From assembly GCF_964019385.1 (NCBI RefSeq), contig NC_088655.1, positions 25,354,477 through 25,418,476 of the forward strand: a stretch of 64,000 bases of DNA. The letters are read 5' to 3'. The position numbers were made by a program, and so were the translations under genes. Shown here one piece after another: positions 39,403-60,533 of this stretch (positions within the stretch are counted from its first letter, which is position 1; each line of letters starts with the position of its first letter). A model generated the notes under the pieces. The model made no database searches, was not told the origin of the DNA, and saw only the letters and a list, made by a program, of their open reading frames with translations. Source of the stretch: Sycon ciliatum (taxonomy: Eukaryota > Porifera > Calcarea > Leucosolenida > Sycettidae).

Positions 39403-39436
39403 AGTAGTAAGTGCGGGGCAGGTTCTGGCACACTTT

Positions 39437-39603
39437 TTGACCTTTGACCTTTGGGCCAAATAAGGCACACTGTGTCGGTCGTGCTGGGTCTGGCCCCGGG
39501 ACTTCCCCCAGGGTTTGACCTTTGACCTTTGGGTTAAATAAGGCACACTGTATCGGGCGCGTTTGGTCTGGCCCCGGGACTCCCCCAGGGTTTGACCTTT
39601 GAC
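39437..39603. repeat. 76-77-bp tandem repeat with DR1 motifs, left tip
   Basis: This is the inverted partner of 58,739-58,905. TGACCTTTGACCT, the reverse of AGGTCAAAGGTCA (a perfect direct repeat spaced by one, as bound by RXR/HNF4-type nuclear receptors), occurs twice, plus one variant. Confidence 0.8.
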
Positions 39604-39713
39604 CCTGTCATGCCATAAATGTCATCATGTTCTTTTCCGTGGCGAACGTGCACTTGTGCACGTTCGGTGCATTCGCACTGGGGAGTAGTAAAATACGTAC
39701 TACTCCCTGATTT

Positions 39714-39870
39714 GCACATCGTAGATGTGCAGTGACATATTGCGCATGCGCGCATACGCACGCGGAGCGTGTGACCTTCAGTGGCCCTGCGGAAAAGACG
39801 CAGTGCAACACAAGGTGGACTAGTACACGTGTCATTATACTACTCCATGATTCGCACTTCGTAGATGTGC
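39714..39870. repeat. Two 17-bp hairpin repeats, left tip
   Basis: GCACATCGTAGATGTGC at 39,714-39,730 (7-bp stem, 3-nt loop) and a variant at 39,854-39,870 are separated by CGTGCATTCG/CGCATGCGCG-rich sequence. A third copy sits at 42,716-42,732, beyond the 2.8-kb insertion. They mirror 58,418-58,628. Confidence 0.8.
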
Positions 39871-39906
39871 AGCAAACAAGTTCACGTTCCGTGCATTCGT
39901 TTTATA

Positions 39907-40325
39907 TAGCAATAAAAACTGCTTTATGGCAGTTTTCTAAAAAGGTTATTGTGTTCTAGTCCATGAATCCCGTCTAAAAAGTAAGAAATTAACGAAATGT
40001 GATAGCCGAAAATTATAATTTCACACAAAACCTCACAATAATCACGACACTTGAAGATCTAATAGTACGGCTTTCAACACTTGTTTATTCCGACACTTGT
40101 ACTTGTACAAGTACATGTACTGCGCCAACATGCTTGCATGTGAAAGAGGACCACGAGGGGAAAAGGTCGTCTCGCATCCTGTGTGTGATTATTGTGAGGT
40201 TTTGTGTGAAATTTTAATTTTCGGCTATCACATTTCGTTAATTTCTTACTTTTTAGACGGGATTCATGGACTAGAACACAATAACCTTTTTAGAAAACTG
40301 CCATAAAGCAGTTTTTATTGCTATA
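39907..40325. mobile_element. ~419-bp fold-back element with ~143-bp arms
   Basis: TATAGCAATAAAAACTGCTT...CACACAAAACCTCACAATAA is repeated in inverted orientation at 40,183-40,325 around a ~130-bp loop containing TACTTGTACAAGTACATGTA. There is no ORF. Confidence 0.85.
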
Positions 40326-40370
40326 ATTTCTTTTGTTTTTTGGCTAAAGGATATTACCGGTATTATTATT

Positions 40371-40650
40371 TTTATTTTATTTTACTAGGGTGTTTCCCAC
40401 AGACCTATGGTCTTCTTACGGGAGCCCCTAGAAAGGTTAAGCATGAACGAACAAATGGGCGATAATCTGTACAAGAGCGAACAGTGAAAGGCAGCATATT
40501 CCACCGATCAGAACCTATAATTGTGTCACCAATTGAATGCCCTAAATGATGGCCTACATGTAGCGACTCTACATGTTATTATTATTATTTTATTTTACTA
40601 GGGTGTTTCGCACAGTCCTATGGTCTTCTTACGGGAGCCCCTATGGCTAT
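40371..40650. repeat. Two copies of a TTATT-tailed repeat
   Basis: TTTTACTAGGGTGTTTC(C/G)CACAG followed by TATGGTCTTCTTACGGGAG occurs at 40,380 and 40,600. The first half also occurs in both palindrome arms (46,978-47,023 and 52,120-52,165). It is probably the 3' end of a short retroelement family. From 40,651 to about 42,090 I see nothing else, except a pogo-like CAGTCAAACCTCTTTAGGAC at 41,298. Confidence 0.55.
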
Positions 40651-42089
40651 GTACATGTACGTGTATCATTATCAATTTCAATACCGTATTATACGCATTG
40701 ATGTGCAAGCCTTTTCTTGCAGAAAATGGAACTAGTCTTGCATACATGTATTCATGTTCTTCTGCAGGGGAATCATATGAGTAGTGGCGGTGATATTTTT
40801 TTTTATACGCAGGTCATTCTGTGGATGTTGCAGAATTCCATGACTCTGTCATAAAATTGTCTTGTCTTTCAGAAAATTCAGATGTCCACACCCTAAATCA
40901 CATTTACTTGAGAATTGTAACCAGGTGCGCGCCGCAGATGTTTTTGTTGATTCTGTGTTTATAATTGTAGTCATGGGTTGTCGTGATAAGGTCATCCGGC
41001 ATCATATTGTAGTGAAATCGTAATCCTGTTGATGTCGGTAAAACTTTTGGAAGCAGTTCAATGACTTCAAAGTGTTACAAGTCCACGATTATCTAAAACA
41101 ACACAGCAAAGTAGGAACAATAAACATGTATTAAAATGTAAACAAATACATTGCTGAGTCCGACACCTCGTTCCAACAACTACACTGATCCTGAGGATAT
41201 AAGGGGCAAGGATATATGGTTGGAGGTACTGAGAGATAAACAAGGCACTCCATAATAATAACATGTTACACGACTTTGGGGGAGTATGAATGATATCCAG
41301 TCAAACCTCTTTAGGACGAACATCAAGGGACCGATGGCATTTGCTCTGTGAGTTTGTCTTAACCCTATTTTTATAACGAGTGAATACAATTATTTCTCCA
41401 ATACTGCAATAGAGACACGAATAGATTTCTTCTACAGCGAAAGATTCTAAGCCAGACCAAACCATTGACTCGTCTTTTATGAAACAAATGAGTCACTGAA
41501 CCTTTCTTTAGCAACATGACGGCAACTGAAACAACAACAGAGAAAATATGATACATGTACAGCACATTCTTGCAGGTACAACAAACAGATTGCAGATCGT
41601 AATTCTTGCTCTACCGGCACGCAACTTTATTTAGTGCAATCTCGGCGGTACTCACAAATCAAACAGCCCAGACTCGAGTAAACAAATCCAATCGTACGAG
41701 ATTTTCACGAGACTGCACCCATTGGCTTGTTTCGTATGAAGCAAACAAGTCACTGAATGCATGAACCTCTCCATAATGGAGATTTTCCCTGATATGCGAA
41801 TTTATTTTGCATACTAACGTTAGTACTCGGCCAATGCGTCCTTGAACCTTCGCCTCCAGATTGGGAACTGCCAACGATGCTATGCCACTGCAAAATTCAG
41901 ATTCTACCCCATGATCGGAGCACGGAATGCCGGAAGCAATCATGACCAGTGCCTTACTTGTAACGTACCAATGTACAATGAACATGAGTATTTCGACAAC
42001 ACATCTAAGCCTTACCGTCAAGAAGGTGAACTCGCGTTCTTCGCACACTGTTGGCAAGTGCAAAGAGATACGAATGGATCTATTAAATC

Positions 42090-42400
42090 CGAATAAAATC
42101 AGCACACGTTTCCGTAAATGAAAGGGTGAGCATAAGCAAATGATTTGATGGAAACTGGTCAACTCAGAGATCACCTGTCATTGAGTATTCCGTAAAAGGA
42201 GGCCTCGACAGCAGAAAAGCTAAATTTAGAAAAGAGATCCTGTCAGCTTTTCCATTATTATTTTATTGTATTCCACCTAAAATCAGCACACTTTTCGTAA
42301 ATGAAAGAGTCAACACAAGCAAATGAATCAAAGGGAACTGGTCAACTCACCTGTCATTGAGTAATATTCCGTGAAAAGAGGTCTCAGCAGAGCCGAAGCG
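42090..42400. repeat. Imperfect direct repeat, ~194-bp period
   Basis: AAAATCAGCACAC(G)TTTTCCGTAAATGAAAG...ACTGGTCAACTC...ACCTGTCATTGAGTA occurs at 42,095 and again at 42,283 with indels. Confidence 0.65.
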
Positions 42401-42714
42401 AAATAAGCCAGGACACGAAATATCCGAAACAGCTCATGCAAGAAGCAGTTCCAAAGAAGGAAGTTCCTCGCGCATGCACATCCGAAAACGGACTGCACGG
42501 CATGCAACACAATGTCTGCCGTGCACGTGCACAGCACGCGGCTACCACCCGTTGCCGTTTTTGGTAGATCTACCGAGCACCTTACGTAGAAACTTACGTA
42601 GCCTAAGTGAAGTACCGAGCACCTTACGTAGAAACTTACGTAGCATAGCGGTGTCGTTTTTTCTGCCATGTGAACACAATAATAGAAAAGCTGACAGGAT
42701 CGCTTTTCTAAATT
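42224..42714. mobile_element. ~490-bp TIR element
   Basis: TTTAGAAAAGAGATCCTGTC...AGCTTTTC at the left is matched in inverted orientation by GAAAAGCTGACAGGATCGCT...TTTCTAAA at the right. It closes the left-arm insertion, next to a hairpin repeat. GAAACTTACGTAG-type direct repeats lie at about 42,588-42,645. Confidence 0.7.
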
Positions 42715-43386
42715 TGCACATCGTAGATGTGCACTGATTGACAAGTTGCCCATACAGAGCATACCTAATCGGCTTTTCGATCGAGAATGTTCAAATTCGG
42801 CCATATTATGAGCTCCAAGATCAGAATTCGGCTCAACATAGTACTTGAAGTCACCGCTCCCATTACGTCAAGTACATTTACATACACCCTGTTGAAGCAC
42901 TGAAGCATCGGTTTTCGGGGAATTCAACATGCGAATTTTTGAAAATTCGGCGAAAAGATGGGTAATTTCTTCAAAACCACTGTTTTTCGGCGAATTTTTC
43001 GCCCGGCCGATTAGGGAAATGCCTACTGTCCATGCAGGTCCATTAGATGCAAATTTCTATTTTGATCAGGATACAGTTAGAATCAACCGGCTACGCCCGG
43101 AGTATCATGCATTAAAACAATTATTGAAGGGGTGTCACAGTGAAGCAGTGTTGCTACGCACCACAAATCCCCTCTGCACTGCATCGAATCTATACTGGAG
43201 AATCCAGAGTGACCAGCAAAGAGTCACAACCCGCGGGTATCCAGTCACACTAAGGCATATCCACCATTCCCCACATATTCACTGTAACAAAACACAATAC
43301 TGTTTACTATAATGCACTTTTATTTAAATGGACTTGGATGAGTCTGTAGAAGAGAACACAATGCACGCACACGCACGCATGCGCGG

Positions 43387-43387
<1 letters not shown>

Positions 43388-43430
<43 letters not shown>

Positions 43431-43439
43431 CTAGGTTAT
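43388..43439 (+). repeat. (CA)26 microsatellite, left arm
   Basis: There are 52 bp of CA in the left arm against 35 bp (17.5 units) of TG at the mirror position 55,713-55,747. The arms therefore differ at a fast-evolving site. Confidence 0.9.
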
Positions 43440-43871
43440 AGTGCTATACACGTATCTAGGGTTTAGGAAGCACGAGAATATGTCGAAGCACCCACGCATA
43501 CCCCTTCATGCAGTGTACTTCAGTAGCCCAACACATTACGACTGCTCAGGACCATCACAAAACACATTACGACCGCTCAGGACCATCACAAAACACTACA
43601 CACTGTTACTACACTGCATACACAGTTACTACACTACGCCTGTTCCAAGTACTTACAAATAATTTTGAAAACAAATGGCACATCCCGAAGACGGCAGCTA
43701 GCTCCAGACCTTCATACATACATCATCATCATCTGTATAACCAAGCATGAGCGCACACAAACACTATTAGTGTCACGAATACGGAAGCAGGGTAAGACAA
43801 GAGGATACGAAACAAGTAAGTATCGCTATAACGAGGGGGATAAGTATACATGTAGACAGAGCAGTGCTTAC

Positions 43872-44316
43872 TTACAGGGTCCGGATACGCTCCATGGCGT
43901 CCCGGTAGTCGGACTGCAACAGCAGCCCGACTTGCCGGCCCTCCCAGTAACGGGCTCGATGGGCCGCACCCGCCAGGTGTGCGGCCACGGCCTGGCCTCC
44001 CACCAGCCTTTCTCCACTGTAAAAACGAAAGAAACCGCAGAAAGCACAGTGTCATAGAGCTCTTTTGTTGGGGGAGAGAGCTAGGAGCACTGCACACTTA
44101 CCATTTGTCACAATATATTATAAGAAAGAGGCGGCGCTTGACGCACCGCCTCAGGTGCTGAAACAAGGGTATAACTCCTGTCAGTTCCACACCGCAGTGG
44201 CAAGTGAACGCCATACTGTAAATGTAATGATACTGAAGTGAAGGTGTGAACCGCAAAGCAAGGCCTTTACCTTCTTCCTGTCGAATTCGCTCCCCAGCTG
44301 CATACCGACATCACCC
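43872..44316 (-). CDS. Spliced small C2H2 zinc-finger protein, left-arm copy
   Basis: This mirrors 54,826-55,270. Exons on the minus strand are about 44,311-44,271, 44,215-44,102 and 44,016-43,876 with the same GT-AG boundaries. The only coding difference noticed is a synonymous change in the second exon. Confidence 0.55.
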
Positions 44317-44416
44317 GCTAAAATCCAATCATACCAAGTAATGCAAAGGTCATCAGTTGACCTTTTGGACTTTTCAACTCTTATCCAAAACCACCAAGAG
44401 GAAAAAAACCCAGGAT

Positions 44417-44475
44417 AATAATAATAATCTTTATTTCAGGATTACCCAAAGGCTAACGCCTATCTGGGGATGAAG
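44417..44475 (-). mobile_element. Retroelement 3' tail with (ATT)n, left arm
   Basis: The minus strand reads GATAGGCGTTAGCCTTTGGG...GAAATAAAG(ATT)n. It is related to 4,090-4,215 and mirrors 54,664-54,736, so it was in the element before the arms were duplicated. Confidence 0.55.
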
Positions 44476-44536
44476 AAGACGTCAGTTGTAGAAGCGTTTT
44501 GTGGAGGAGTTGTTACATTATTCTCAGTAAATAGAT

Positions 44537-45316
44537 ATGGCTGATACATTCGGTGTAGACGTGGACGACCGGTCGTGGTCTCTCACCACGGGTCCTTTAC
44601 TAATAGAAAGGCGGACGCCAATAAGAACTGTTGTGGAGTTGGCAGATCAAAACGCGCAGCAAGAAATTTGGCACGTCGATGGTAGACTCCATCGGGAGGA
44701 CGGACCAGCTCTTGTTGATAGTAGGGGAGTGTCCGCCTGGTGCTATGGAGGTCGCCTTCATCGCGTTAATGAACCTGCTTGGATAGGACGGGGTAGCATC
44801 GAGTACTACCTCAACGGCGTCTAGAGCCGGCGGTCCTGCAGTTATTGTGACGCCACATGCTGTATTCTACGGTGGTTACACCACGGAAGGCTCCACAGGG
44901 AGAATGCGCCAGCGGTGATACGCAGGGAAGGTAACAATCGTGTACGGGAGTGGTACCGATACAACCTTCGGCATAGGGAAGATGGACCTGCTTTCATCTC
45001 TCAGGAGGAGGAGGGTGTCTATCAGTGGTACCTCAACGGGGTGTATTACGATGACCACCATCAAGACCAGGCAATACACCCCATGGAGCTGCAGTACATC
45101 AATGTAGTGCCTACTAAGGTAGACTCGTCAGCAATAAGTCATGAGTCCATTTGTGTGATTTGTCAGGATACCCTGGACCGTCCTCTATCCAAGTTGGAGT
45201 GCGGTCATGAATTTCACTTCCACTGCATCAAGGAGTGGATCAGTTCTGCCCCCAGCCCTACTTGCCTAACCTGCCGCTACTCCATGACTGCTGAGGACTT
45301 GGTTGAGTTCTTGTAG
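44537..45316 (+). pseudogene. RING-H2 protein with W..NG..HR.DGPA repeats, left copy, interrupted
   Basis: ATG 44,537 opens a frame with WHVDGRLHREDGPAL and a second, weaker repeat. It stops at TAG 44,822-44,824 and is open again in the same frame from 44,825 to 45,316, with two more repeats (HGRLHRENAPAV; NLRHREDGPAF ... YQWYLNGV) and a C-terminal RING-H2 finger (CVIC ... CGHEFHFHC ... CLTC). The repeat type (W-Y-x-N-G-x-x-H-R-x-D-G-P-A) is common in giant and other large DNA viruses. RING fingers act as ubiquitin ligases, with unknown substrate here. The stretch around the stop fits another frame better, suggesting compensating indels, so this is a decayed gene or one read with an intron. 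Confidence 0.7.
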
Positions 45317-45402
45317 TAATACATGACACAGCTGCATGTAGGCGACTACGAATGACCAGTCATGTGCTACAGACGGACACGGACACGCCACCCTAAGTAG
45401 CC

Positions 45403-45627
45403 ATGAGCGGCTCTTTGGACAAGGGCAACAAAGCACCCCGTGGGCGGCCAAGGTTGACACTAGCCACAAGTCTGCTCGCTCAGTTGAATAAGCTGGGTGT
45501 GCCCATGAAGACCATGGAAGACCTTTCCAGGTGCCGGCAACAAGCAGAGGACAAGACAGACTGGAAGAAACTGTGCAGCTCGACACTCGAGGACAAATCA
45601 GTATCAGCAGCTACTACACCTTGCTGA
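45403..45627 (+). CDS. 74-aa ORF of unknown function, left arm
   Basis: An ATG-started short ORF with GRPRLTLATSLLAQLNKLGV ... DLSRCRQQAEDKTDWKKL. The second half resembles the C-terminal tail of some LINE ORF2 proteins (R..A.DR..W+.L), so it may be a retroelement scrap. It is identical in both arms. Confidence 0.35.
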   Translation: MSGSLDKGNKAPRGRPRLTLATSLLAQLNKLGVPMKTMEDLSRCRQQAEDKTDWKKLCSSTLEDKSVSAATTPC

Positions 45628-45769
45628 TGATGCTCACAAGACAGAAGTGGGAAAAACACTGAATTTCTTTATTTAGTGCTCAACTACGCGAAATGTGTTA
45701 TTATTATTATACATGTTCAACTGTACTCAGTCTGGCTGACTGCCATTCTCTACCACACATTACCGGACA

Positions 45770-46775
45770 CTGTTGTGGTTGTCGTCGTTATCGTCGTCGT
45801 CATTGTTGATGTTGTTGTCGTCGTTATCGTCGTTGTTGTTGATTTTGTTGGTGGCTGTTGCTGTCGGTTGTTGTCGGTTGTTGTCGTTTGCTGTTGGTTG
45901 TTGTTGGTTGTTGTTGATGTTGTTGTCGGTTGGTGTCGTCGTTATCGTCGTCGTTGTTGATGTTGTTATTAGTTGTTGCTGTCGGTTGTTGGTTGTTATT
46001 GGTTGTTGCTGTCGGTTGTTGGTTGTTATTGTTGATTGCTGTGGGTTGTTGTTGGCTGTTGGATGTTGTTGTCGGCTGTTGTCGGTTGTTGTTGGTTATT
46101 GTTGGTTGTTGTTGGTTGTTGTTGGGCGTTGTTGGTTGTTGTCGGTTGTTGTCAGGTGTTGTTGGTTGTTGTTGGTTGTTGTTGTCGGTTGTTGTCGGTT
46201 GTTGGGTGTTGTTGTCGGTTGTTGGGTGTTGTTGTCGATTGTTGGGTGTTGTTGTCGGTTGTTGGGTGTTGTTGTTGGTTGGTGTTGGTTGGTGTTGGTT
46301 GTTGTTGGTTGTTGTCGGTTGTTGTCCGTTGTTGTTGGTTGTTGTTGGTTGTTGTTGGCTGTTGTTGGTTGTTGTTGTTGTTGTTGTTGTTTGTTGTTGT
46401 CGGTTGTTGGTTGTTGTTGTGTGTTGTTGTTGGTTGTAGTTGGTTGTTGTCAGTTGTTGTTGGTTGTTGGATGTTGTTGTCGGTTGTTGTCGGTTCTTGT
46501 TGGTTGTTGTTGGTTGTTGTTGGCTGTTGTTGGTTGTTGTTGGTTGTTGTTGGTTGTTGTTGGTTGTTGTTGTCGGTTGTTGGTTGTTGTCGTTTGTTGT
46601 TGTTGTTGTTGGTTGTAGTTGGTTGTTGTCAGTTGTTGTTGGTTGTTGGATGTTGTTGTCGGTTGTTGTCGGTTGTTGTCGGTTGTTGTCGGTTGTTGTT
46701 GGTTGTTGTTGGCTGTTGTTGGCTGTTTTTGGTTGTTGTTGGTTGTTGTCGGTTGTTGTCGGTTGTTGTGTTTTA
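45770..46775 (+). repeat. ~1-kb (GTTGTTGTTGGTT)n tract, left arm
   Basis: This is almost pure G/T on the plus strand, built of TTGTTGTTGG and TTGTCGG blocks with a ~12-bp rhythm. It keeps long frames open on both strands (Gln/Asn/Pro/Thr or Val/Leu/Cys-rich), which I regard as composition artefacts. It mirrors 52,370-53,370. Confidence 0.9.
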
Positions 46776-47197
46776 ATCGTTATTATGTTCATTATCCAGG
46801 AGGATGTTGCTATGATCCAGTACCATTTTTTCGCATATATGAGACAAGTTTGTGTAACGTTAGTGTGACGCGGGGTATGCTGATTGGATGTGAGGTGGTG
46901 AGAGTATGCTGATTGGCCGATAACAATTAGTGGAAGGGATAAAGTAATGCGCTGCTTGTGCAGCGTAACCAAACACATGGTCTGTGGGAAACACCCTAGT
47001 AAAATAAATAAAATAATAATAACATGAATTGCCACCGGCACTTGAGAGACTCGAGCCCCGCCACCTTGTTCAAATCGGACTTGGTAGCTTCATACTGGAA
47101 CTTAATCTTCTTCTTTTTGAGGTATGACCGTACAAAACGCGCTTGGATTTTTTCATTTTATTTTTTTATTTTTTATTTTTTTTGTTTTTTATTTTTT

Positions 47198-47572
47198 TCA
47201 TTGCAACTTTTTTAGCAGATAGCAACTTTTTTTAGCAGACTCGTGAAACAACGGTGAATCTGGAACGAATAAATGGTCCATGTCAAAGGCATGACGAGTC
47301 TCGAAGTCTTCACATTCACGATGGAACCTTGTCATGATTGACGCATTCCTTGATGGTGCGCACATGAAATCACCCTGGCTTATCTTTTCCAACTCCATTC
47401 TTTTCACATCCTGCAACCCATACCCTACTAGTATCAGTGGGGATGCTAGAATCAGAAGAGGCAAGGCAGCACTCTTCCGTGGATGTATTACTCGACACAA
47501 CACCACCCATACTTGTTTTCTAGAAGTTTTGACTATAATGATATATTGCAGCAGGAAGTAGTATACAGTCAA
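47198..47572 (-). CDS. Unknown 124-codon frame, left arm
   Basis: This mirrors 51,571-51,945 with one visible substitution. There is no ATG at the start of the frame. See the right-arm copy. Confidence 0.3.
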   Translation of the reverse strand: MTVYYFLLQYIIIVKTSRKQVWVVLCRVIHPRKSAALPLLILASPLILVGYGLQDVKRMELEKISQGDFMCAPSRNASIMTRFHRECEDFETRHAFDMDHLFVPDSPLFHESAKKSCYLLKKLQ

Positions 47573-47632
47573 ATAGGATAGGATAAGAATGAATGATCAA
47601 CTGTCTGATAAAGAATGCTGTTCATTAAAGAC

Positions 47633-48403
47633 TTATTGGAAGGTCTCTACCAGCTGATCGTCATGTTGGACGGCGACACTGCATAATGATATGAAGCTCT
47701 CAGTTAGCTGTTTCAGTTCCGTGGTAGAAAGTGTCATGTGTGCGTCCAGAGAACGATGAAAACATCTAGGGTCCACGTTGATGCAGACGATTGGAGCAAC
47801 AGCAAGACGTACCTTCAACGCTTGCTCGTCAATGTCGAGGGAGACTGCCCCGGGGTAGATGAAAACATCTTGTTCCACATCCAGTTCGAACCAGCTGGTC
47901 GGGACTAGCTTGCTTTCACCGTTGATGTACACCCGACATTGACCGTAGGACGAACGTGATGGGTAGAAGTTGGTCTTGATCTTCTCCACACGTCCTCTTC
48001 GGAGAGTGTCACGGAGCGATGGACAAGTCTTGATCAAGTTCGTAATGATGAACTCAGTGGACTCATTCAGTTCGATGTAAACCTGTCCTTGAGCATCTTT
48101 GCGAGCTGTTGCCGTACTACTACAGGCTGGTAGAGCTCCTGAAGGGAAGAACATCTTATAACCAGGCTTGTAGAAGGATCTACCTGATGACTTGTAGGAC
48201 AGTTGCATGTCCTCCTGAAACCCATCTACCACAATCTCTTTGTGGAGCTTGGTAGGAGCAGGTGACACATAGCGACGCTTAGCCGGTACTGCCTTCGAAG
48301 AGAGCACAACTTGAGGAGGGTCAGCAGGAAGAGCGGAATTCTTCCTCACCCGCCGCTCGTATAGGTTATCCATCTTCCAGGAAGCGAAGGGAGAACAACT
48401 CAT
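47633..48403 (-). CDS. Unknown 256-aa protein, left-arm copy
   Basis: This mirrors 50,740-51,510 and starts at the ATG 58 bp downstream of a TATA box. It differs from the right copy by at least one residue (Ser for Gly in the GSTATARK region). Confidence 0.65.
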   Translation of the reverse strand: MSCSPFASWKMDNLYERRVRKNSALPADPPQVVLSSKAVPAKRRYVSPAPTKLHKEIVVDGFQEDMQLSYKSSGRSFYKPGYKMFFPSGALPACSSTATARKDAQGQVYIELNESTEFIITNLIKTCPSLRDTLRRGRVEKIKTNFYPSRSSYGQCRVYINGESKLVPTSWFELDVEQDVFIYPGAVSLDIDEQALKVRLAVAPIVCINVDPRCFHRSLDAHMTLSTTELKQLTESFISLCSVAVQHDDQLVETFQ

Positions 48404-48451
48404 CAGCACTGTATTCGATGAACGAATGACTCGACTACAGGACAACCAACC

Positions 48452-48643: not shown

Positions 48644-48646
48644 ATC

Positions 48647-49656: not shown

Positions 49657-49704
49657 ATCATGCTGGATATAGTGTCATAATGAGGATGTTGGTGAGGAGT
49701 GAAG

Positions 49705-50496
49705 ATGGATTCTGAATTTAAGATCTTACCTGCTTATGTACGTGAAAGGAGACTTCATGAGAAGGATGAAGATGAAGAAGAAGAAGAAGAAGAAGAAGAA
49801 GAAGAGCAATTCGGGGAGGAAAAACAGTGTCAACATCTTGATCATGTTTTACATGAAGGAAGATACGTGTGTTCTTCGTGTGGACTTGTCATGGCGGTGA
49901 TTTACTTCACTGAAGATGATGTGCATAGGAGATGTAGTTTGATGAAGAAGTCTTACGCGGTACATGAGCGGTTAAGCGGTGTGGATCGTCATCTTTTGCA
50001 TTTTCTTTCGAAAACTGAACTCTTATCCGATCAGCTTTGCGTACACACTCTTCGGGAGCAGATACTTGCGATGAAAAAATCCTCTTTGTACAAGAGTATA
50101 AACTATGCTATAGCATTATCCTGCATAGTATACGATACGAATGTGGATGTACTACGTAAACTGCGTTCCTACTTACCTCGTAGCAATGTATCATGGTTGA
50201 GGTGCAGTCGAATCATGAAACCTCTTCCTCAGCATTTTCCACTCCTATATGTACTGCGTCTCATGGAGTCGACCAGGATGGTGTCTTCTTCTCAACTGTC
50301 CACGTTGCGTACGAATTTGCTGATTTTATCTCCATCTGATACATCTCTTATGGTATCATTGATTGATGCCTATTGTTGGGAAACCTATTCACTTGATCAC
50401 GTGATTCAGAACTTGCACACGTTTGACTCTGATCTTATTTCCATACTGTATCAGTTCACTAAAGTGGCGGTATCATGTAAGGAATCTTTAAGATGA
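49705..50496 (+). CDS. TFIIB-like zinc-ribbon transcription factor
   Basis: ATG 49,705 (MDSEFKILPAY) lies ~60 bp downstream of TATATAA; the frame runs to a stop at 50,496. After a glutamate run (residues ~22-33) comes a zinc ribbon, C-Q-H-L-D-H ... GRYVCSSCGLVM. The C/H pair, then C-x2-C-G-L-V, is the signature of TFIIB family proteins, and the remaining ~200 residues are helical-looking, as expected for cyclin folds, though too diverged to confirm. Cellular TFIIB recruits RNA polymerase II. TFIIB homologues are also carried by large DNA viruses, where they serve viral transcription. The length (263 aa) is a little short for TFIIB. Without a search I cannot say whether the origin is viral or host. 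Confidence 0.7.
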   Translation: MDSEFKILPAYVRERRLHEKDEDEEEEEEEEEEEQFGEEKQCQHLDHVLHEGRYVCSSCGLVMAVIYFTEDDVHRRCSLMKKSYAVHERLSGVDRHLLHFLSKTELLSDQLCVHTLREQILAMKKSSLYKSINYAIALSCIVYDTNVDVLRKLRSYLPRSNVSWLRCSRIMKPLPQHFPLLYVLRLMESTRMVSSSQLSTLRTNLLILSPSDTSLMVSLIDAYCWETYSLDHVIQNLHTFDSDLISILYQFTKVAVSCKESLR

Positions 50497-50499
50497 GAT

Positions 50500-50691
50500 A
50501 TGATTTTGGTGGGCATGCCGCTGATTGGACAAAATGCTTTTGGCGGGTTTGATGCTGGTTGGTCAAATGTTTTTGGTGGGCTCAATGCTGAGTGGTCAAA
50601 TGTTTTTGGCGGGCTTGATGGTGATTGGTTGACCTAGCTGACACATATTTTATCACTTCAACCCGCCTCCGTCTCTGCCTTGTATAAATAC
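50500..50691 (+). promoter_or_regulatory. Promoter: four 33-bp repeats (E2F/CCAAT-like) and TATA box
   Basis: TTTTGG(C/T)GGG recurs every 33 bp from about 50,504 to 50,636. TTTTGGCGGG (twice) is close to the E2F consensus, while TTTTGGTGGG (twice) is a variant. Each unit also carries ATTGG or GTTGG, the inverse of CCAAT. TTGTATAAATAC at 50,680-50,691 is the TATA box, 49 bp before the ATG at 50,740. Together these make a plausible S-phase-responsive promoter; the regulation is inferred, not shown. Confidence 0.6.
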
Positions 50692-50739
50692 GGGTGGTTG
50701 TCCTGTAGTCGAGTCATTCGTTCATCGAATACAGTGCTG

Positions 50740-51510
50740 ATGAGTTGTTCTCCCTTCGCTTCCTGGAAGATGGATAACCTATACGAGCGGCGGGTGAGGA
50801 AGAATTCCGCTCTTCCTGCTGACCCTCCTCAAGTTGTGCTCTCTTCGAAGGCAGTACCGGCTAAGCGTCGCTATGTGTCACCTGCTCCTACCAAGCTCCA
50901 CAAAGAGATTGTGGTAGATGGGTTTCAGGAGGACATGCAACTGTCCTACAAGTCATCAGGTAGATCCTTCTACAAGCCTGGTTATAAGATGTTCTTCCCT
51001 TCAGGAGCTCTACCAGCCTGTGGTAGTACGGCAACAGCTCGCAAAGATGCTCAAGGACAGGTTTACATCGAACTGAATGAGTCCACTGAGTTCATCATTA
51101 CGAACTTGATCAAGACTTGTCCATCGCTCCGTGACACTCTCCGAAGAGGACGTGTGGAGAAGATCAAGACCAACTTCTACCCATCACGTTCGTCCTACGG
51201 TCAATGTCGGGTGTACATCAACGGTGAAAGCAAGCTAGTCCCGACCAGCTGGTTCGAACTGGATGTGGAACAAGATGTTTTCATCTACCCCGGGGCAGTC
51301 TCCCTCGACATTGACGAGCAAGCGTTGAAGGTACGTCTTGCTGTTGCTCCAATCGTCTGCATCAACGTGGACCCTAGATGTTTTCATCGTTCTCTGGACG
51401 CACACATGACACTTTCTACCACGGAACTGAAACAGCTAACTGAGAGCTTCATATCATTATGCAGTGTCGCCGTCCAACATGACGATCAGCTGGTAGAGAC
51501 CTTCCAATAA
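50740..51510 (+). CDS. Unknown 256-aa protein
   Basis: The start was chosen at ATG 50,740 (MSCSPFASWKMDNLYERRVR) because the TATA box lies 49 bp upstream; an in-frame open stretch before it is promoter DNA. The N-terminal ~70 residues are basic and Ser/Pro-rich. The rest has no transmembrane segment, signal peptide or cysteine cluster, and includes SLRDTLRRGRVEKIKTNFYP, VYINGESK and ELDVEQDVFIYPG. I recognise no family. A DNA-binding, regulatory or virion role would be guesswork. It is the second outward-reading gene from the centre, after the TFIIB-like gene. Confidence 0.65.
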   Translation: MSCSPFASWKMDNLYERRVRKNSALPADPPQVVLSSKAVPAKRRYVSPAPTKLHKEIVVDGFQEDMQLSYKSSGRSFYKPGYKMFFPSGALPACGSTATARKDAQGQVYIELNESTEFIITNLIKTCPSLRDTLRRGRVEKIKTNFYPSRSSYGQCRVYINGESKLVPTSWFELDVEQDVFIYPGAVSLDIDEQALKVRLAVAPIVCINVDPRCFHRSLDAHMTLSTTELKQLTESFISLCSVAVQHDDQLVETFQ

Positions 51511-51570
51511 GTCTTTAATGAACTGCATTCTTTATCAGACAGTTGATCATTCATTCTTATCCTATCCTAT

Positions 51571-51945
51571 TTGACTGTATACTACTTCCTGCTGCAATAT
51601 ATCATTATAGTCAAAACTTCTAGAAAACAAGTATGGGTGGTGTTGTGTCGAGTAATACATCCACGGAAGAGTGCTGCCTTGCCTCTTCTGATTCTAGCAT
51701 CCCCACTGATACTAGTAGGGTATGGGTTGCAGGATGTGAAAAGAATGGAGTTGGAAAAGATGAGCCAGGGTGATTTCATGTGCGCACCATCAAGGAATGC
51801 GTCAATCATGACAAGGTTCCATCGTGAATGTGAAGACTTCGAGACTCGTCATGCCTTTGACATGGACCATTTATTCGTTCCAGATTCACCGTTGTTTCAC
51901 GAGTCTGCTAAAAAAAGTTGCTATCTGCTAAAAAAGTTGCAATGA
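51571..51945 (+). CDS. Unknown 124-codon frame, possibly a terminal exon
   Basis: The open frame has no ATG until MELEKMSQGDFMCAP in its second half. It contains a hydrophobic segment (ALPLLILASPLILVGYG) and then a Cys/His-containing hydrophilic part. A possible splice acceptor (TTCTGATTCTAG) lies inside. It ends in an A-rich tract. Low confidence as a gene. Confidence 0.3.
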   Translation: MTVYYFLLQYIIIVKTSRKQVWVVLCRVIHPRKSAALPLLILASPLILVGYGLQDVKRMELEKMSQGDFMCAPSRNASIMTRFHRECEDFETRHAFDMDHLFVPDSPLFHESAKKSCYLLKKLQ

Positions 51946-52119
51946 AAAAAATAAAAAACAAAAAAAATAAAAAATAAAAAAATAAAATGAAAAAATCCAA
52001 GCGCGTTTTGTACGGTCATACCTCAAAAAGAAGAAGATTAAGTTCCAGTATGAAGCTACCAAGTCCGATTTGAACAAGGTGGCGGGGCTCGAGTCTCTCA
52101 AGTGCCGGTGGCAATTCAT

Positions 52120-52165
52120 GTTATTATTATTTTATTTATTTTACTAGGGTGTTTCCCACAGACCA
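52120..52165 (+). repeat. TTATT-tailed repeat end, right arm
   Basis: It reads TTATTATTTTATTTATTTTA + CTAGGGTGTTTCCCACAGACC. It mirrors 46,978-47,023 and is related to the copies at 40,371-40,650. CCAAT boxes lie just downstream (52,225-52,265) without a convincing gene. Confidence 0.55.
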
Positions 52166-52369
52166 TGTGTTTGGTTACGCTGCACAAGCAGCGCATTACT
52201 TTATCCCTTCCACTAATTGTTATCGGCCAATCAGCATACTCTCACCACCTCACATCCAATCAGCATACCCCGCGTCACACTAACGTTACACAAACTTGTC
52301 TCATATATGCGAAAAAATGGTACTGGATCATAGCAACATCCTCCTGGATAATGAACATAATAACGATTA

Positions 52370-53370
52370 AAACACAACAACCGACAACAACCGACAACAA
52401 CCAACAACAACCAAAAACAGCCAACAACAGCCAACAACAACCAACAACAACCGACAACAACCGACAACAACCGACAACAACCGACAACAACATCCAACAA
52501 CCAACAACAACTGACAACAACCAACTACAACCAACAACAACAACAACAAACGACAACAACCAACAACCGACAACAACAACCAACAACAACCAACAACAAC
52601 CAACAACAACCAACAACAGCCAACAACAACCAACAACAACCAACAAGAACCGACAACAACCGACAACAACATCCAACAACCAACAACAACTGACAACAAC
52701 CAACTACAACCAACAACAACACACAACAACAACCAACAACCGACAACAACAAACAACAACAACAACAACAACAACCAACAACAGCCAACAACAACCAACA
52801 ACAACCAACAACAACGGACAACAACCGACAACAACCAACAACAACCAACACCAACCAACACCAACCAACAACAACACCCAACAACCGACAACAACACCCA
52901 ACAATCGACAACAACACCCAACAACCGACAACAACACCCAACAACCGACAACAACCGACAACAACAACCAACAACAACCAACAACACCTGACAACAACCG
53001 ACAACAACCAACAACGCCCAACAACAACCAACAACAACCAACAATAACCAACAACAACCGACAACAGCCGACAACAACATCCAACAGCCAACAACAACCC
53101 ACAGCAATCAACAATAACAACCAACAACCGACAGCAACAACCAATAACAACCAACAACCGACAGCAACAACTAATAACAACATCAACAACGACGACGATA
53201 ACGACGACACCAACCGACAACAACATCAACAACAACCAACAACAACCAACAGCAAACGACAACAACCGACAACAACCGACAGCAACAGCCACCAACAAAA
53301 TCAACAACAACGACGATAACGACGACAACAACATCAACAATGACGACGACGATAACGACGACAACCACAA
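52370..53370 (+). repeat. ~1-kb (CAACAACAACCRA)n tract, right arm
   Basis: This mirrors 45,770-46,775. The plus strand is almost only C and A, with CAACAACAACC units interspersed with GA. The 405-codon Gln/Asn/Thr/Pro frame across it and the Val/Leu/Cys frames opposite are not credible proteins. Confidence 0.9.
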
Positions 53371-53515
53371 CAGTGTCCGGTAATGTGTGGTAGAGAATGG
53401 CAGTCAGCCAGACTGAGTACAGTTGAACATGTATAATAATAATAACACATTTCGCGTAGTTGAGCACTAAATAAAGAAATTCAGTGTTTTTCCCACTTCT
53501 GTCTTGTGAGCATCA

Positions 53516-53740
53516 TCAGCAAGGTGTAGTAGCTGCTGATACTGATTTGTCCTCGAGTGTCGAGCTGCACAGTTTCTTCCAGTCTGTCTTGTCCTCTGCT
53601 TGTTGCCGGCACCTGGAAAGGTCTTCCATGGTCTTCATGGGCACACCCAGCTTATTCAACTGAGCGAGCAGACTTGTGGCTAGTGTCAACCTTGGCCGCC
53701 CACGGGGTGCTTTGTTGCCCTTGTCCAAAGAGCCGCTCAT
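53516..53740 (-). CDS. 74-aa ORF of unknown function, right arm
   Basis: The mirror copy of 45,403-45,627, identical in protein sequence. It lies directly downstream of the RING gene on the same strand. Confidence 0.35.
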   Translation of the reverse strand: MSGSLDKGNKAPRGRPRLTLATSLLAQLNKLGVPMKTMEDLSRCRQQAEDKTDWKKLCSSTLEDKSVSAATTPC

Positions 53741-53826
53741 GGCTACTTAGGGTGGCGTGTCCGTGTCCGTCTGTAGCACATGACTGGTCATTCGTAGTCG
53801 CCTACATGCAGCTGTGTCATGTATTA

Positions 53827-54605
53827 CTACAAGAACTCAACCAAGTCCTCAGCAGTCATGGAGTAGCGGCAGGTTAGGCAAGTAGGGCTGGGGGCAGAAC
53901 TGATCCACTCCTTGATGCAGTGGAAGTGAAATTCATGACCGCACTCCAACTTGGATAGAGGACGGTCCAGGGTATCCTGACAAATCACACAAATGGACTC
54001 ATGACTTATTGCTGACGAGTCTACCTTAGTAGGCACTACATTGATGTACTGCAGCTCCATGGGGTGTATTGCCTGGTCTTGATGGTGGTCATCGTAATAC
54101 ACCCCGTTGAGGTACCACTGATAGACACCCTCCTCCTCCTGAGAGATGAAAGCAGGTCCATCTTCCCTATGCCGAAGGTTGTATCGGTACCACTCCCGTA
54201 CACGATTGTTACCTTCCCTGCGTATCACCGCTGGCGCATTCTCCCTGTGGAGCCTTCCGTGGTGTAACCACCGTAGAATACAGCATGTGGCGTCACAATA
54301 ACTGCAGGACCGCCGGCTCTAGACGCCGTTGAGGTAGTACTCGATGCTACCCCGTCCTATCCAAGCAGGTTCATTAACGCGATGAAGGCGACCTCCATAG
54401 CACCAGGCGGACACTCCCCTACTGCAACAAGAGCTGGTCCGTCCTCCCGATGGAGTCTACCATCGACGTGCCAAATTTCTTGCTGCGCGTTTTGATCTGC
54501 CAACTCCACAACAGTTCTTATTGGCGTCCGCCTTTCTATTAGTAAAGGACCCGTGGTGAGAGACCACGACCGGTCGTCCACGTCTACACCGAATGTATCA
54601 GCCAT
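53827..54605 (-). pseudogene. RING-H2 / W..NG..HR.DGPA-repeat protein, right copy, broken
   Basis: The mirror of 44,537-45,316. It carries an additional one-base change near 54,425 that shifts the frame after DGPALV, so the N-terminal frame runs only to 54,357. The RING-bearing half (54,228-53,827) is intact. The two copies therefore decay independently. Confidence 0.7.
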
Positions 54606-54663
54606 ATCTATTTACTGAGAATAATGTAACAACTCCTCCACAAAACGCTTCTACAACTGACGT

Positions 54664-54736
54664 CTTCTTCATCCCCAGATAGGCGTTAGCCTTTGGGTAA
54701 TCCTGAAATAAAGATTATTATTATTATCCTGGGTTT
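54664..54736 (+). mobile_element. Retroelement 3' tail with (ATT)n, right arm
   Basis: The mirror of 44,417-44,475: GATAGGCGTTAGCCTTTGGG, AAATAAAG and (ATT)n in order. Confidence 0.55.
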
Positions 54737-54825
54737 TTTTCCTCTTGGTGGTTTTGGATAAGAGTTGAAAAGTCCAAAAGGTCAACTGATGACCTTTGCA
54801 TTACTTGGTATGATTGGATTTTAGC

Positions 54826-55270
54826 GGGTGATGTCGGTATGCAGCTGGGGAGCGAATTCGACAGGAAGAAGGTAAAGGCCTTGCTTTGCGGTTCACACCT
54901 TCACTTCAGTATCATTACATTTACAGTATGGCGTTCACTTGCCACTGCGGTGTGGAGCTGACAGGAGTTATACCCTTGTTTCAGCACCTGAGGCGGTGCG
55001 TCAAGCGCCGCCTCTTTCTTATAATATATTGTGACAAATGGTAAGTGTGCAGTGCTCCTAGCTCTCTCCCCCAACAAAAGAGCTCTATGACACTGTGCTT
55101 TCTGCGGTTTCTTTCGTTTTTACAGTGGAGAAAGGCTGGTGGGAGGCCAGGCCGTGGCCGCACACCTGGCGGGTGCGGCCCATCGAGCCCGTTACTGGGA
55201 GGGCCGGCAAGTCGGGCTGCTGTTGCAGTCCGACTACCGGGACGCCATGGAGCGTATCCGGACCCTGTAA
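54826..55270 (+). CDS. Spliced small protein with two C2H2-type zinc fingers
   Basis: Three exons are read from signals. Exon 1 is about 54,826-54,871 (ATG 54,831, donor GTAAAG), exon 2 is 54,927-55,040 (acceptor TTTACAG, donor GTAAGTG) and exon 3 is 55,126-55,266 (acceptor TTTTACAG, then CTG TAA or a donor GTAAGTA). The introns are 55 and 85 nt. Exon 2 encodes MAFTCHCGVELTGV ... HLRRC, and its split last codon completes a CDKC pair with exon 3 (GERLVGG ... HLAGAAH), giving a second Cys2His2 pattern across the junction. The agreement of phase and finger spacing supports the splicing. Exon 3 is markedly G+C-rich. Translation could start at 54,831 or 54,928. Function unknown. Confidence 0.6.
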
Positions 55271-55711
55271 GTAAGCACTGCTCTGTCTACATGTATACTT
55301 ATCCCCCTCGTTATAGCGATACTTACTTGTTTCGTATCCTCTTGTCTTACCCTGCTTCCGTATTCGTGACACTAATAGTGTTTGTGTGCGCTCATGCTTG
55401 GTTATACAGATGATGATGATGTATGTATGAAGGTCTGGAGCTAGCTGCCGTCTTCGGGATGTGCCATTTGTTTTCAAAATTATTTGTAAGTACTTGGAAC
55501 AGGCGTAGTGTAGTAACTGTGTATGCAGTGTAGTAACAGTGTGTAGTGTTTTGTGATGGTCCTGAGCGGTCGTAATGTGTTTTGTGATGGTCCTGAGCAG
55601 TCGTAATGTGTTGGGCTACTGAAGTACACTGCATGAAGGGGTATGCGTGGGTGCTTCGACATATTCTCGTGCTTCCTAAACCCTAGATACGTGTATAGCA
55701 CTATAACCTAG

Positions 55712-55712
<1 letters not shown>

Positions 55713-55747
<35 letters not shown>
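55713..55747 (+). repeat. (TG)17.5 microsatellite, right arm
   Basis: The mirror of the (CA)26 tract at 43,388-43,439 but 17 bp shorter. Confidence 0.9.
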
Positions 55748-55875
55748 CCGCGCATGCGTGCGTGTGCGTGCATTGTGTTCTCTTCTACAGACTCATCCAA
55801 GTCCATTTAAATAAAAGTGCATTATAGTAAACAGTATTGTGTTTTGTTACAGTGAATATGTGGGGAATGGTGGAT

Positions 55876-57893
55876 ATTATTATTATTATTATTAGACACA
55901 ATCTCATAGCATGTGACAAGCATAGCTAATGCAGGGAGAGAATCCCCTGAGACAAGGGCGTTGAGCCAGCCACGGCAATAGTAAGCTAGGAAAACAAAGC
56001 AAATATGAATTAAAGCAGAAAATGAATGGAAAATTACAAAGAAAAACGATTAACGGAAGTGAGCACTATCAAAATTCGTGCATCACCCAGGTATTCGAGA
56101 ATGTTCTTCGATGATAATTATTGCGTCTAGTTCAGTTGTGATAGTAGATCTTTAAACTGACCAATAGAAGAACAAGTTTTCAGACCGTATGGTAATGATA
56201 ACCAATGAGAGTAGCCGGAAAACAAAGGGGACTTTAGATACTGGGCTGACTTAACAAGAGGCAGGGTGAGCGCGTTACGGGTTGAGCTTGTCGAAAACCA
56301 ATTGTACTTCATCATGTGTGAAGGGGTTTTATGAAGAAATATCTTATGAACCAGTGTACAGAGATGGTGCTTATGACGAACGGAGAGAGGAGAAGTGTGT
56401 GCAAGTCGATAAAGGGCATCCGAAGGAAAACATCGATCCTTGTTGTAAAGAATTTTAAGTATAAATCTATGGTGGACTTCTAATTGGCTCAGAGTTGTGT
56501 CAGAAAGGCCACACCAAGCGGTATCGCAATAGTCGAATAAAGGGAGAATATAGCACTGATAAAATAATAGTTTACACTGGATGGGCAAATGAGTGCAATG
56601 TGGTTGTAGTACCCCTAAGGCTGAACTGGTTCGCTTGCATACACAGTTGACATGTGCAGCCCAAGAGAGTTTGCAGTCAAACATCACACCTAGATGTTTG
56701 TGCTGAGTAACAACACGGATAGGCATAGTCGAGTCAGGGAAGAATAATGGTTGATCAGGAGGGGATGAAGAAATATACATGGCTTCTGTCTTGTCTAAAT
56801 TGGGCTGGAGTTTCCACGTTTGCATCCACATGACAGTGCTGTTGATGCGATGCTGCATGGTAAGGAGTAATTGTGCAGGGGAGGAATCAGAACAGATAAG
56901 GCCAGTGTCATCCGCATACAAACTAACATCGGGGACAACTGAAGGTAGGTCATTAACGTAAAGCAAGAATAACAAAGGACCCAGAATGGAACCTTGGGGC
57001 ACTCCAGACGTTACAGGGAGGGGATCAGACAAGAAATAGAACAAGCGAACAGCCTGAGAACGAGCAGACAGATACGAGGATATCCAACGCAAGGCAGCAT
57101 CCTCCACCCGGAAGGTGACCTTCAACTTGGCAAGTAAGCCACGATGCCAAACGGTGTCGAATGCCTTAGCCAAGTCGAAAAACACCATTCCCACGTGCTC
57201 CCCACAGTTCCTCTTTGTCGCTATGTCTTGGACAAGTCGAGTCACCTGGTATTGAGTTGAGTCACCACGGCAGAATCCCGACTGAGCTGGTGAGAGAGCC
57301 GGAGCGATGTGCAGGTAGAGGGAATCGAATACAATACGCTCACAAAGTTTGGAAACTGTGCGCAGCAGAGAGATGGGGCGGTAGTTTGCCGGGCAAGCAC
57401 GGGAGCCTTTATTCTTGTAAAGCGGTGTCACGATGGCGGATTTCCAATCCTGTGGGAATGTACCAGTTCGAAATGACATATTAAAAATAATGGCGAGAGG
57501 ATAGGCTATTGATGGTGCAAGAGACTGCAGCACTTCATTCGGGATCCCATCTGAGCCGGGAGACTTTCCACATTTCAGGCGCTTCAGATATTTCCGAACT
57601 TGAAACGTAGTGACAGTGATTGTACGGAACGGAACAGATATGAAAGGCGACTGGGACAAAGGGGGAATGCGCCACGAAGGATCATCAGGTAGCCCAAATG
57701 AGGTGAACTGAGTGTTCAGAACATCAGCTATGCTCTTGGGGGACGTGGCGACCGTACCGTCGGATGCTATCATCGTTTGGGGCATGACACGGCCGGAAGT
57801 GTGCCGCTGTGCTCGCACAAACTGAAAGAGTGTAGGTCGATTCGGTGACGTTAGTGATGCTTGGATGGAGCGTATATATTGACGATGTGCTTG
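55876..57893 (-). mobile_element. 5'-truncated CR1/L2/Jockey-like non-LTR element, present only in the right arm
   Basis: The left arm lacks it: at the mirror point (about 43,252-43,260) the sequence is continuous. The minus-strand 3' end has an (ATT)n-type tail at 55,876-55,895, and the 5' end is cut at about 57,893 inside ORF2. It inserted after the arms were formed. Confidence 0.88.
56127..57893 (-). CDS. Non-LTR ORF2 fragment: RT and C-terminal domain
   Basis: It is open from about 57,893 (HRQYIRSIQASLTSP) to the stop at 56,127. It contains CGKSPGSDGIPNE, NYRPISLLRTVSKL, FFDLAKAFDTVWHRG, GVPQGSILGPLLFLLYVNDL, the catalytic YADDTGL, HKHLGVMFDCKLSW and a C-terminal KYNWF. The endonuclease is missing by 5' truncation, but the RT is unbroken, so insertion is recent. 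It is a close relative of the element at 4,529-7,526. Confidence 0.92.
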   Translation of the reverse strand, partial: QAHRQYIRSIQASLTSPNRPTLFQFVRAQRHTSGRVMPQTMIASDGTVATSPKSIADVLNTQFTSFGLPDDPSWRIPPLSQSPFISVPFRTITVTTFQVRKYLKRLKCGKSPGSDGIPNEVLQSLAPSIAYPLAIIFNMSFRTGTFPQDWKSAIVTPLYKNKGSRACPANYRPISLLRTVSKLCERIVFDSLYLHIAPALSPAQSGFCRGDSTQYQVTRLVQDIATKRNCGEHVGMVFFDLAKAFDTVWHRGLLAKLKVTFRVEDAALRWISSYLSARSQAVRLFYFLSDPLPVTSGVPQGSILGPLLFLLYVNDLPSVVPDVSLYADDTGLICSDSSPAQLLLTMQHRINSTVMWMQTWKLQPNLDKTEAMYISSSPPDQPLFFPDSTMPIRVVTQHKHLGVMFDCKLSWAAHVNCVCKRTSSALGVLQPHCTHLPIQCKLLFYQCYILPLFDYCDTAWCGLSDTTLSQLEVHHRFILKILYNKDRCFPSDALYRLAHTSPLSVRHKHHLCTLVHKIFLHKTPSHMMKYNWFSTSSTRNALTLPLVKSAQYLKSPLFSGYSHWLSLPYGLKTCSSIGQFKDLLSQLN

Positions 57894-58417
57894 CCCTTAG
57901 TGTGACTGGATACCCGCGGGTTGTGACTCTTTGCTGGTCACTCTGGATTCTCCAGTATAGATTCGATGCAGTGCAGAGGGGATTTGTGGTGCGTAGCAAC
58001 ACTGCTTCACTGTGACACCCCTTCAATAATTGTTTTAATGCATGATACTCCGGGCGTAGCCGGTTGATTCTAACTGTATCCTGATCAAAATAGAAATTTG
58101 CATCTAATGGACCTGCATGGACAGTAGGCATTTCCCTAATCGGCCGGGCGAAAAATTCGCCGAAAAACAGTGGTTTTGAAGAAATTACCCATCTTTTCGC
58201 CGAATTTTCAAAAATTCGCATGTTGAATTCCCCGAAAACCGATGCTTCAGTGCTTCAACAGGGTGTATGTAAATGTACTTGACGTAATGGGAGCGGTGAC
58301 TTCAAGTACTATGTTGAGCCGAATTCTGATCTTGGAGCTCATAATATGGCCGAATTTGAACATTCTCGATCGAAAAGCCGATTAGGTATGCTCTGTATGG
58401 GCAACTTGTCAATCAGT

Positions 58418-58628
58418 GCACATCTACGATGTGCAAATAAAACGAATGCACGGAACGTGAACTTGTTTGCTGCACATCTACGAAGTGCGAATCATGGAGT
58501 AGTATAATGACACGTGTACTAGTCCACCTTGTGTTGCACTGCGTCTTTTCCGCAGGGCCACTGAAGGTCACACGCTCCGCGTGCGTATGCGCGCATGCGC
58601 AATATGTCACTGCACATCTACGATGTGC
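58418..58628. repeat. Three 17-bp hairpin repeats, right tip
   Basis: GCACATCTACGATGTGC occurs at 58,418-58,434 and 58,612-58,628, with a one-base variant at 58,472-58,488. Each forms a 7-bp stem with a TAC loop and is followed by AAAT/GAAT and, for two, GGAGTAGTA. They lie within ~520 bp of the element tip, where replication or integration signals would be expected; this role is a guess. Confidence 0.8.
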
Positions 58629-58738
58629 AAATCAGGGAGTAGTACGTATTTTACTACTCCCCAGTGCGAATGCACCGAACGTGCACAAGTGCACGTTCGC
58701 CACGGAAAAGAACATGATGACATTTATGGCATGACAGG

Positions 58739-58905
58739 GTCAAAGGTCAAACCCTGGGGGAGTCCCGGGGCCAGACCAAACGCGCCCGATACAGTGTGCC
58801 TTATTTAACCCAAAGGTCAAAGGTCAAACCCTGGGGGAGTCCCGGGGCCAGACCCAGCACGACCGACACAGTGTGCCTTATTTGGCCCAAAGGTCAAAGG
58901 TCAAA
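58739..58905. repeat. 76-77-bp tandem repeat with DR1 motifs, right tip
   Basis: Two units plus a partial one start at 58,739, 58,816 and 58,892. AGGTCAAAGGTCA, a perfect DR1 nuclear-receptor half-site pair, is present in the last two; the first has GGGTCA. CCTGGGGGAGTCCCGGGGCC lies between. The array ends ~33 bp from the element terminus. Confidence 0.85.
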
Positions 58906-58946
58906 AAGTGTGCCAGAACCTGCCCCGCACTTACTACTCCGGCCGG

Positions 58947-60530: not shown

Positions 60531-60533
60531 GAT

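Follow-up and report, generated by a model that had tools for sequence, protein, structure and literature searches.

Linear, protein-primed DNA such as that of adenovirus is copied by strand displacement and can give a snap-back genome when the new strand turns back on itself; such genomes are familiar as errors of replication. In these adenovirus-type defective genomes one end is doubled head to head and both ends are good origins. The element described here has the same form, but unlike them it is integrated, carries genes and has apparently been amplified as a lineage. It lies at positions 39403-58938 of a 64,000-nucleotide stretch of the genome of the calcareous sponge Sycon ciliatum (NC_088655.1, positions 25,354,477 to 25,418,476 of the forward strand; hereafter the window), and has the ends of a Maverick (Polinton). 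It is rather probable that a Maverick snap-back turned into a gene-carrying satellite lineage which is replicated and integrated in trans. According to PMC8097293, (AGT)2//(ACT)2 is the commonest end motif of vertebrate Mavericks, (AG)3//(CT)3 is an alternative conserved one, the elements have 6-bp duplications, and the inverted repeats of intact vertebrate copies measure 46-1447 bp. The window element resembles animal Mavericks in its ends, duplications and size range (PMC8097293), and other elements of the same genome carry PolB and putative capsid and ATPase genes. In contrast to Mavericks, its family is a full palindrome, and PolB, integrase and capsid genes were not found in its scanned arms; where vertebrate Mavericks have short inverted repeats, here the repeat is the whole element, two later inserts excepted.

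Self-comparison of the window and alignment of the arms confirm the outline given by a first-pass annotation of this DNA, which had described two inverted arms of ~7.36 kb each around a 2-base centre, AG...CT tips and a perfect flanking CCGGCC. Over 6311 aligned columns the core of the arms shows 10 mismatches and 15 gap bases, an identity of 99.6%; arm differences cluster near the centre (~0.001, a hand estimate to which we give no weight). In the self-comparison the outer pieces match at 100% over 544 bp and at 99.2% over 517 bp, flank included. The tips read AGTAGTAAGTGCGGGGC... at the left and ...ACTTACTACT at the right, giving AGTAGT//ACTACT, and CCGGCC stands outside each. The evidence speaks against the palindrome being a mirror made by the assembly, because the arms differ in their flanks, in their private inserts and in one residue each that is derived with respect to relatives (PACS in the left arm, WLRC in the right). 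CCGGCC sits within a GC-rich, self-complementary flank and taken alone would be weak evidence, whereas nine other copies follow the same rule with unrelated 6-mers.

These copies come from a genome-wide list of matches to the window's left tip, in which 40 tips were scored among 476 candidates, all of them 94-100% identical. They consist of ten plus/minus pairs, 12.5-22.6 kb apart and including the window, and 20 unpaired tips. The AGTAGT//ACTACT motif and a perfect 6-bp duplication were found in all ten pairs (GAGGTG, CTCATG, CCGGTA, GAATGG, AATGTG, ATGCGT, CACCTG, CACAAG, CGCAAG and CCGGCC), and the tip reads AGTAGTTAGT in two pairs and AGTAGTAAGT in the rest. The Maverick/Polinton class of end proposed in the first-pass annotation is supported, because motif and duplication occur together in 10 of 10 pairs and the motif matches that given in PMC8097293. 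The annotation had also suggested looking for further copies with 6-bp duplications, and nine more tip pairs are present in the genome, all with perfect ones.

All ten tip pairs have a palindromic centre. Both halves of copy C4 were read, and match as mirror images at 99.8% over two blocks, with one half lacking ~1.7 kb; for the other eight copies the centres were read as sequence, and that of C9b has a lesion on one side. The window's inner sequence is present in nine of the ten palindromes, the exception being C12b, which shares a 179-bp piece only. The window centre is imperfect, with arm mismatches at 49546, 49547 and 49560, and exactly the same imperfect centre is found in C13, C4 and C9a, occurring in two orientations. 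Different imperfect centres are present in C1a and C12c, and C1b has a perfect one. In C12a, perfect 576-bp arms surround a 1-bp spacer, and the innermost ~30 bp are inverted relative to C1b (by eye). Because four copies have an identical imperfect centre, the palindrome appears to be copied as a palindrome, and we read these centres as a form that is inherited as such and occasionally re-formed.

Pairs outside the ten tip pairs are known from match positions. Each arm carries a TFIIB-like gene and a gene of 256 amino acids (aa), for which the best 145 of 807 and the best 148 of 422 candidates were scored, respectively. Of the latter, 124 form 62 head-to-head (divergent) pairs with a median spacing of 3056 bp (1647-3832), and there are no convergent pairs among the 148. 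Random placement of 148 copies gave a mean of 0.1 pairs and a maximum of 2 in 1000 trials. In 46 of the 62 pairs the two arms score the same, whereas shuffled scores gave 2.9 such pairs on average and never more than 10. The 256-aa gene is free of stops in 147 of its 148 scored copies and the TFIIB-like gene in 135 of 145. The palindrome thus appears to be the main form among the scored copies. The first-pass annotation had taken the element for an integrated snap-back derivative; its Maverick ends stand and a snap-back seems the simplest origin for a molecule of the window type, but a lone derivative is contradicted by the 62 head-to-head pairs and by the centre common to four copies. In a blind genome sample of 15 stretches, the window matches among those listed were confined to the left-arm insert and simple repeats.

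Some copies differ in gene number or in stops. The copy at C12:15710940-15733573 holds a third pair of 256-aa and TFIIB-like genes (C12:15716562, 15717576), and each of its three TFIIB-like copies has one TAG, the positions of which were not compared. The two arms of another pair, C12:19746470 and C12:19747507, each have a TFIIB-like gene with one TGA and one TAA (positions likewise not compared), a pattern that the copying of a decayed arm onto the other would leave. In three further pairs the TFIIB-like stop is confined to one arm.

The first-pass call of a TFIIB-like gene depends on weak zinc-ribbon matches: Pfam finds the TFIIB ribbon in 8 of 10 aligned family sequences (best E 0.0056), with the window protein falling below the curated cut-off. 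The C-x-H...C-x2-C zinc-ribbon residues are invariant in 10 of 10 of these sequences, the window's among them. The 256-aa protein has no Pfam or PDB sequence match, PDB sequence searches with the element proteins gave nothing significant, and IMG/VR viral contigs held no relatives of the TFIIB-like family, the 256-aa family or the capsid-like protein described below. Relatives of the arm proteins in protein searches are 32-100% identical. Both intact arm genes have TATA-like boxes directly upstream (by eye), so the box that had been annotated before the unknown gene is there but is not peculiar to it. The annotated RING protein is present as a frame, interrupted upstream, with an identical 163 residues in the two arms, and the C2H2 gene of the same annotation found no C2H2 match among the open reading frames (ORFs) scanned in Pfam. 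Neither a protein-primed PolB nor a Rep-type gene was found among the window ORFs scanned in Pfam, and none of the 52 PF03175 matches in the genome falls in the window. Among the arm ORFs scanned there was no RVE-type integrase (the genome was not searched for integrase), and no major or minor capsid protein, ATPase or protease was recognised. The absence of core genes, as first annotated, holds for the window element but not for every palindrome with such ends, since one of these carries putative capsid and ATPase genes.

The ratio of nonsynonymous to synonymous change (dN/dS) among recent copies of the 256-aa gene was 0.71 and 0.46 in two comparisons, and three others had no changes; for the TFIIB-like gene it was >1 wherever computable, on few changes. 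Long-term constraint on the window genes is suggested solely by relatives of ~50% identity elsewhere.

The exceptional palindrome C12b (C12:9676786-9689298) has tips 95.8% like those of the window and a different gene content: a TFIIB-like gene, a collagen-like gene, frames of 360 and 537 aa, and a P-loop ATPase-like gene at the centre. Pfam gave Collagen at 1e-15 and weak AAA-type P-loop matches only (best E 0.0066). Its arms are 94% alike at the centre, and two 401-bp samples of the right arm match their mirror positions in the left arm at 100%. The 360-aa and 537-aa frames are putative minor and major capsid proteins. The capsid and ATPase calls were made by size, order and motif only, the label of the 537-aa protein because of its length, its neighbours and its sequence character, and searches of Pfam, PHROG and PDB gave this protein no significant match. 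Among the best 81 of 226 candidates for the 537-aa gene, 34 are 97-100% identical and 47 are 68-73% identical, four have a stop, and the only inverted pair is that of C12b. Ordinary elements bearing the window-type end probably exist, because a lone capsid-like gene lies on the strand of the tip in 14 of the 20 unpaired cases, 3.36-3.49 kb away in 13 of them and 9.1 kb away in one. C12b looks like a snap-back of such an ordinary capsid-bearing element. Two of the other six unpaired tips (C10, C4) lie ~5 kb from head-to-head 256-aa gene pairs.

The collagen-repeat gene of C12b (1903-2823 of the stretch read) thus lies inside a virus-like palindrome. Forty-four of the 47 capsid-like genes in the 68-73% group have no stop, and this group suggests that a second Maverick-like family is abundant in the genome. 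Cleavage motifs of the adenain type were sought in a small basic protein beside the capsid-like gene and rejected, since their number is not above chance (it was equalled or exceeded in 1038 of 5000 shuffles).

PolB is also found in palindromes. PF03175 gave 52 matches above the cut-off in the genome. Six convergent pairs with members no more than 25 kb apart are among them, and in one of these the distance is 23 kb. The pairs on C3 and C1 were read as sequence, and are palindromes with 7.5-kb arms that are 99.7-99.9% alike, each with a 1189-aa frame containing PolB (7.1e-22) and an adjacent TFIIB-like frame. The C1 palindrome ends in AGTAGA//TCTACT with the duplication GTCGAT on both sides; the right tip of the C3 palindrome was looked for and not found. 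Neither has a blastn match to the window arms. The dN/dS of PolB is 0.40 for C3 against C1 and 0.09 for C3 against C5 (469 codons), and long-term constraint on PolB is visible in these values. Repeats like TTAGGG/AACCCTAA are present near the ends and centre of these two palindromes (C1:6022135-6039787, C3:2878500-2896500).

We propose that a linear Maverick-like DNA was being copied by strand displacement when the new strand turned back on itself. The product would be a palindrome of one end, with the same replication and integration ends on both sides, and this palindrome may have become a lineage that keeps a TFIIB-like and a 256-aa gene in each arm and spreads with 6-bp duplications. As a satellite it would draw its polymerase, integrase and perhaps capsid from Maverick-type elements elsewhere in the genome. 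A displaced single strand could fold into a ~7.3-kb hairpin with its origin at the open duplex end, and copying round this hairpin would restore the full palindrome and keep the arms equal. Such a model would explain why the element has this form, these ends and these duplications, why its arms are equal and why imperfect centres are inherited; its hairpin replication, mobilisation in trans and satellite status are what we infer beyond the observations.

Several points weigh against it. The best-scoring lists (148 of 422, 145 of 807 and 81 of 226) favour intact copies, and 24 of the 148 scored copies of the 256-aa gene are unpaired, known by position alone. Equal arms can alternatively result from gene conversion or recent birth. 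The first-pass annotation had proposed a search for a longer element sharing these ends; the 14 tips with a single capsid-like gene fit a parent of C12b, while an ordinary element carrying the inner genes of the window element was not identified. A helper acting in trans is presumed by the model, and the tips of the PolB palindromes are like the window's over the first ~10 bases only. There is no sign of purifying selection on the TFIIB-like gene in the dN/dS of recent copies, and folds of the TFIIB-like and 256-aa proteins were predicted without confidence (mean pLDDT 45.4 and 34.6, respectively).

The three palindrome types, bearing TFIIB-like and 256-aa, capsid/ATPase, and PolB genes, could instead be segments of a divided Maverick-like virus, each packaged in self-complementary form. 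A TFIIB-like relative is present in each type read, the capsid-bearing palindrome shares its tips with the window at the identity given above, and convergent PolB pairs recur. We nevertheless consider this rather unlikely, as the capsid palindrome is an exception (one inverted pair among 81 scored genes), the PolB palindromes have different tips, and separate segments are unnecessary if ordinary elements hold all the genes. The Bidnaviridae have a Polinton-type PolB and a split genome, which makes them relevant here, but they are single-stranded DNA viruses, and we know of no integrated palindromes of this family. It is in our view unlikely that a multipartite Maverick-like virus of self-complementary double-stranded DNA resides in an animal genome, with transcription, capsid and polymerase modules that are hairpin-replicating, integrating palindromes. 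An imperfect centre that occurs in both orientations in several copies is also what a terminal hairpin would give, and the integrated form could be an inverted dimer of a ~7.3-kb monomer closed at the 'centre', comparable to a concatemer junction of poxviruses or parvoviruses. As in self-complementary parvovirus or adeno-associated virus DNA with its rolling hairpin replication, there is a potential full-length hairpin strand and an imperfect central hairpin; unlike those viruses, the element has Maverick ends, and a Rep-type gene was not among the ORFs scanned. We regard the dimer as improbable: no monomer ending at the centre was shown, the unpaired gene copies being known by position alone, and the readings overlap, since a palindrome copied by protein priming would also go through this hairpin.

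A single adenovirus-like snap-back that integrated once, as first annotated, fits the anatomy of the window element, and C12b resembles the outcome of one. As an explanation of the whole family to which the window element belongs it is refuted by the 62 head-to-head pairs of the arm gene and the common imperfect centre; it may describe the first event, but we give it very little credence otherwise. Least credible is a foldback-type DNA transposon of another superfamily that is Maverick-like by chance. Foldback elements such as Galileo typically consist for the most part of very long inverted repeats, and the ORFs scanned in the window copy include no Maverick core gene. However, 10 of 10 pairs have 6-bp duplications and, at each end, the Maverick motif of six bases, and the element differs from Galileo-type foldbacks in its ends, duplications, gene-bearing arms and virus-type siblings, of which C12b has ATPase-like and capsid-like genes.

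If the satellite reading is right, a form otherwise met as a replication error has here apparently given rise to a lineage that is inherited and successful, numbering dozens of integrated copies whose scored frames are mostly open. The family offers a natural system for testing how Maverick-type DNA is replicated, how an animal genome tolerates very long palindromes and how satellites originate from defective genomes. No description of palindromic Mavericks was found in the titles and abstract openings of the literature searched, most subscription papers being outside the search.

Features of the palindrome and its surroundings (positions in the window)
Feature	Position	Strand	Basis
LINE-like fragment (LINE, long interspersed nuclear element), 5'-truncated, palindrome inserted at its 5' edge	38581..39402	-	by eye
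Left copy of 6-bp target-site duplication, CCGGCC	39397..39402	.	sequence read
Left tip, starts AGTAGTAAGTGCGGGGC, ~78-bp tandem repeats	39403..39905	+	sequence read
2.8-kb insert private to left arm	39906..42711	.	arm comparison
Remainder of left arm	42712..49573	+	arm comparison
RING frame as in right arm, left arm	44825..45316	+	zf-RING_2 1.7e-8 (Pfam)
256-aa gene, left arm	47633..48403	-	
TFIIB-like gene, 265 aa, left arm	48647..49444	-	
Palindrome centre, AC	49574..49575	.	arm comparison, sequence read
Right arm, inner part	49576..55877	-	arm comparison
TFIIB-like zinc-ribbon gene, 263 aa, right arm	49705..50496	+	
256-aa gene, fold without assignment, right arm	50740..51510	+	
CAA-rich tandem repeat, 0.94 kb (mirror copy 45832-46769)	52374..53311	+	sequence
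RING-domain frame, right arm, containing LHREDGPA-type repeats; interrupted upstream	53827..54318	-	
LINE reverse-transcriptase fragment private to right arm	55878..57894	-	RVT_1 2e-29 (Pfam)
Right arm, outer part, and right tip, ends ACTACT	57895..58938	-	arm comparison
Right copy of 6-bp target-site duplication, CCGGCC	58939..58944	.	sequence read
Host LINE (endonuclease and start of reverse transcriptase), interrupted; resumes ~38580 by eye	58945..60533	-	ORFs, Pfam

The palindrome seems to lie among older insertions. The truncated fragment at its left, which we take to be of a LINE family, has no Pfam match, and seems itself to lie within a second LINE. The frame of this outer LINE reaches 58945 and continues beyond the palindrome on the other side (by eye), and a 15-bp repeat, GTAGGCAAACTGACT, is present at 38566-38580 and again at 58947-58961. 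The palindrome would be the youngest of three nested insertions, with the two arm inserts having come afterwards.

The window holds further repeats. An inverted repeat of 633 bp (26199-26831 and 27165-27794, 98.9% identity, 0.33-kb spacer) is unrelated to the palindrome, and another of 439 bp (1-439 and 1200-1638) is 100% identical. Gypsy-like retrotransposon frames were recognised by eye at 33096-37402.

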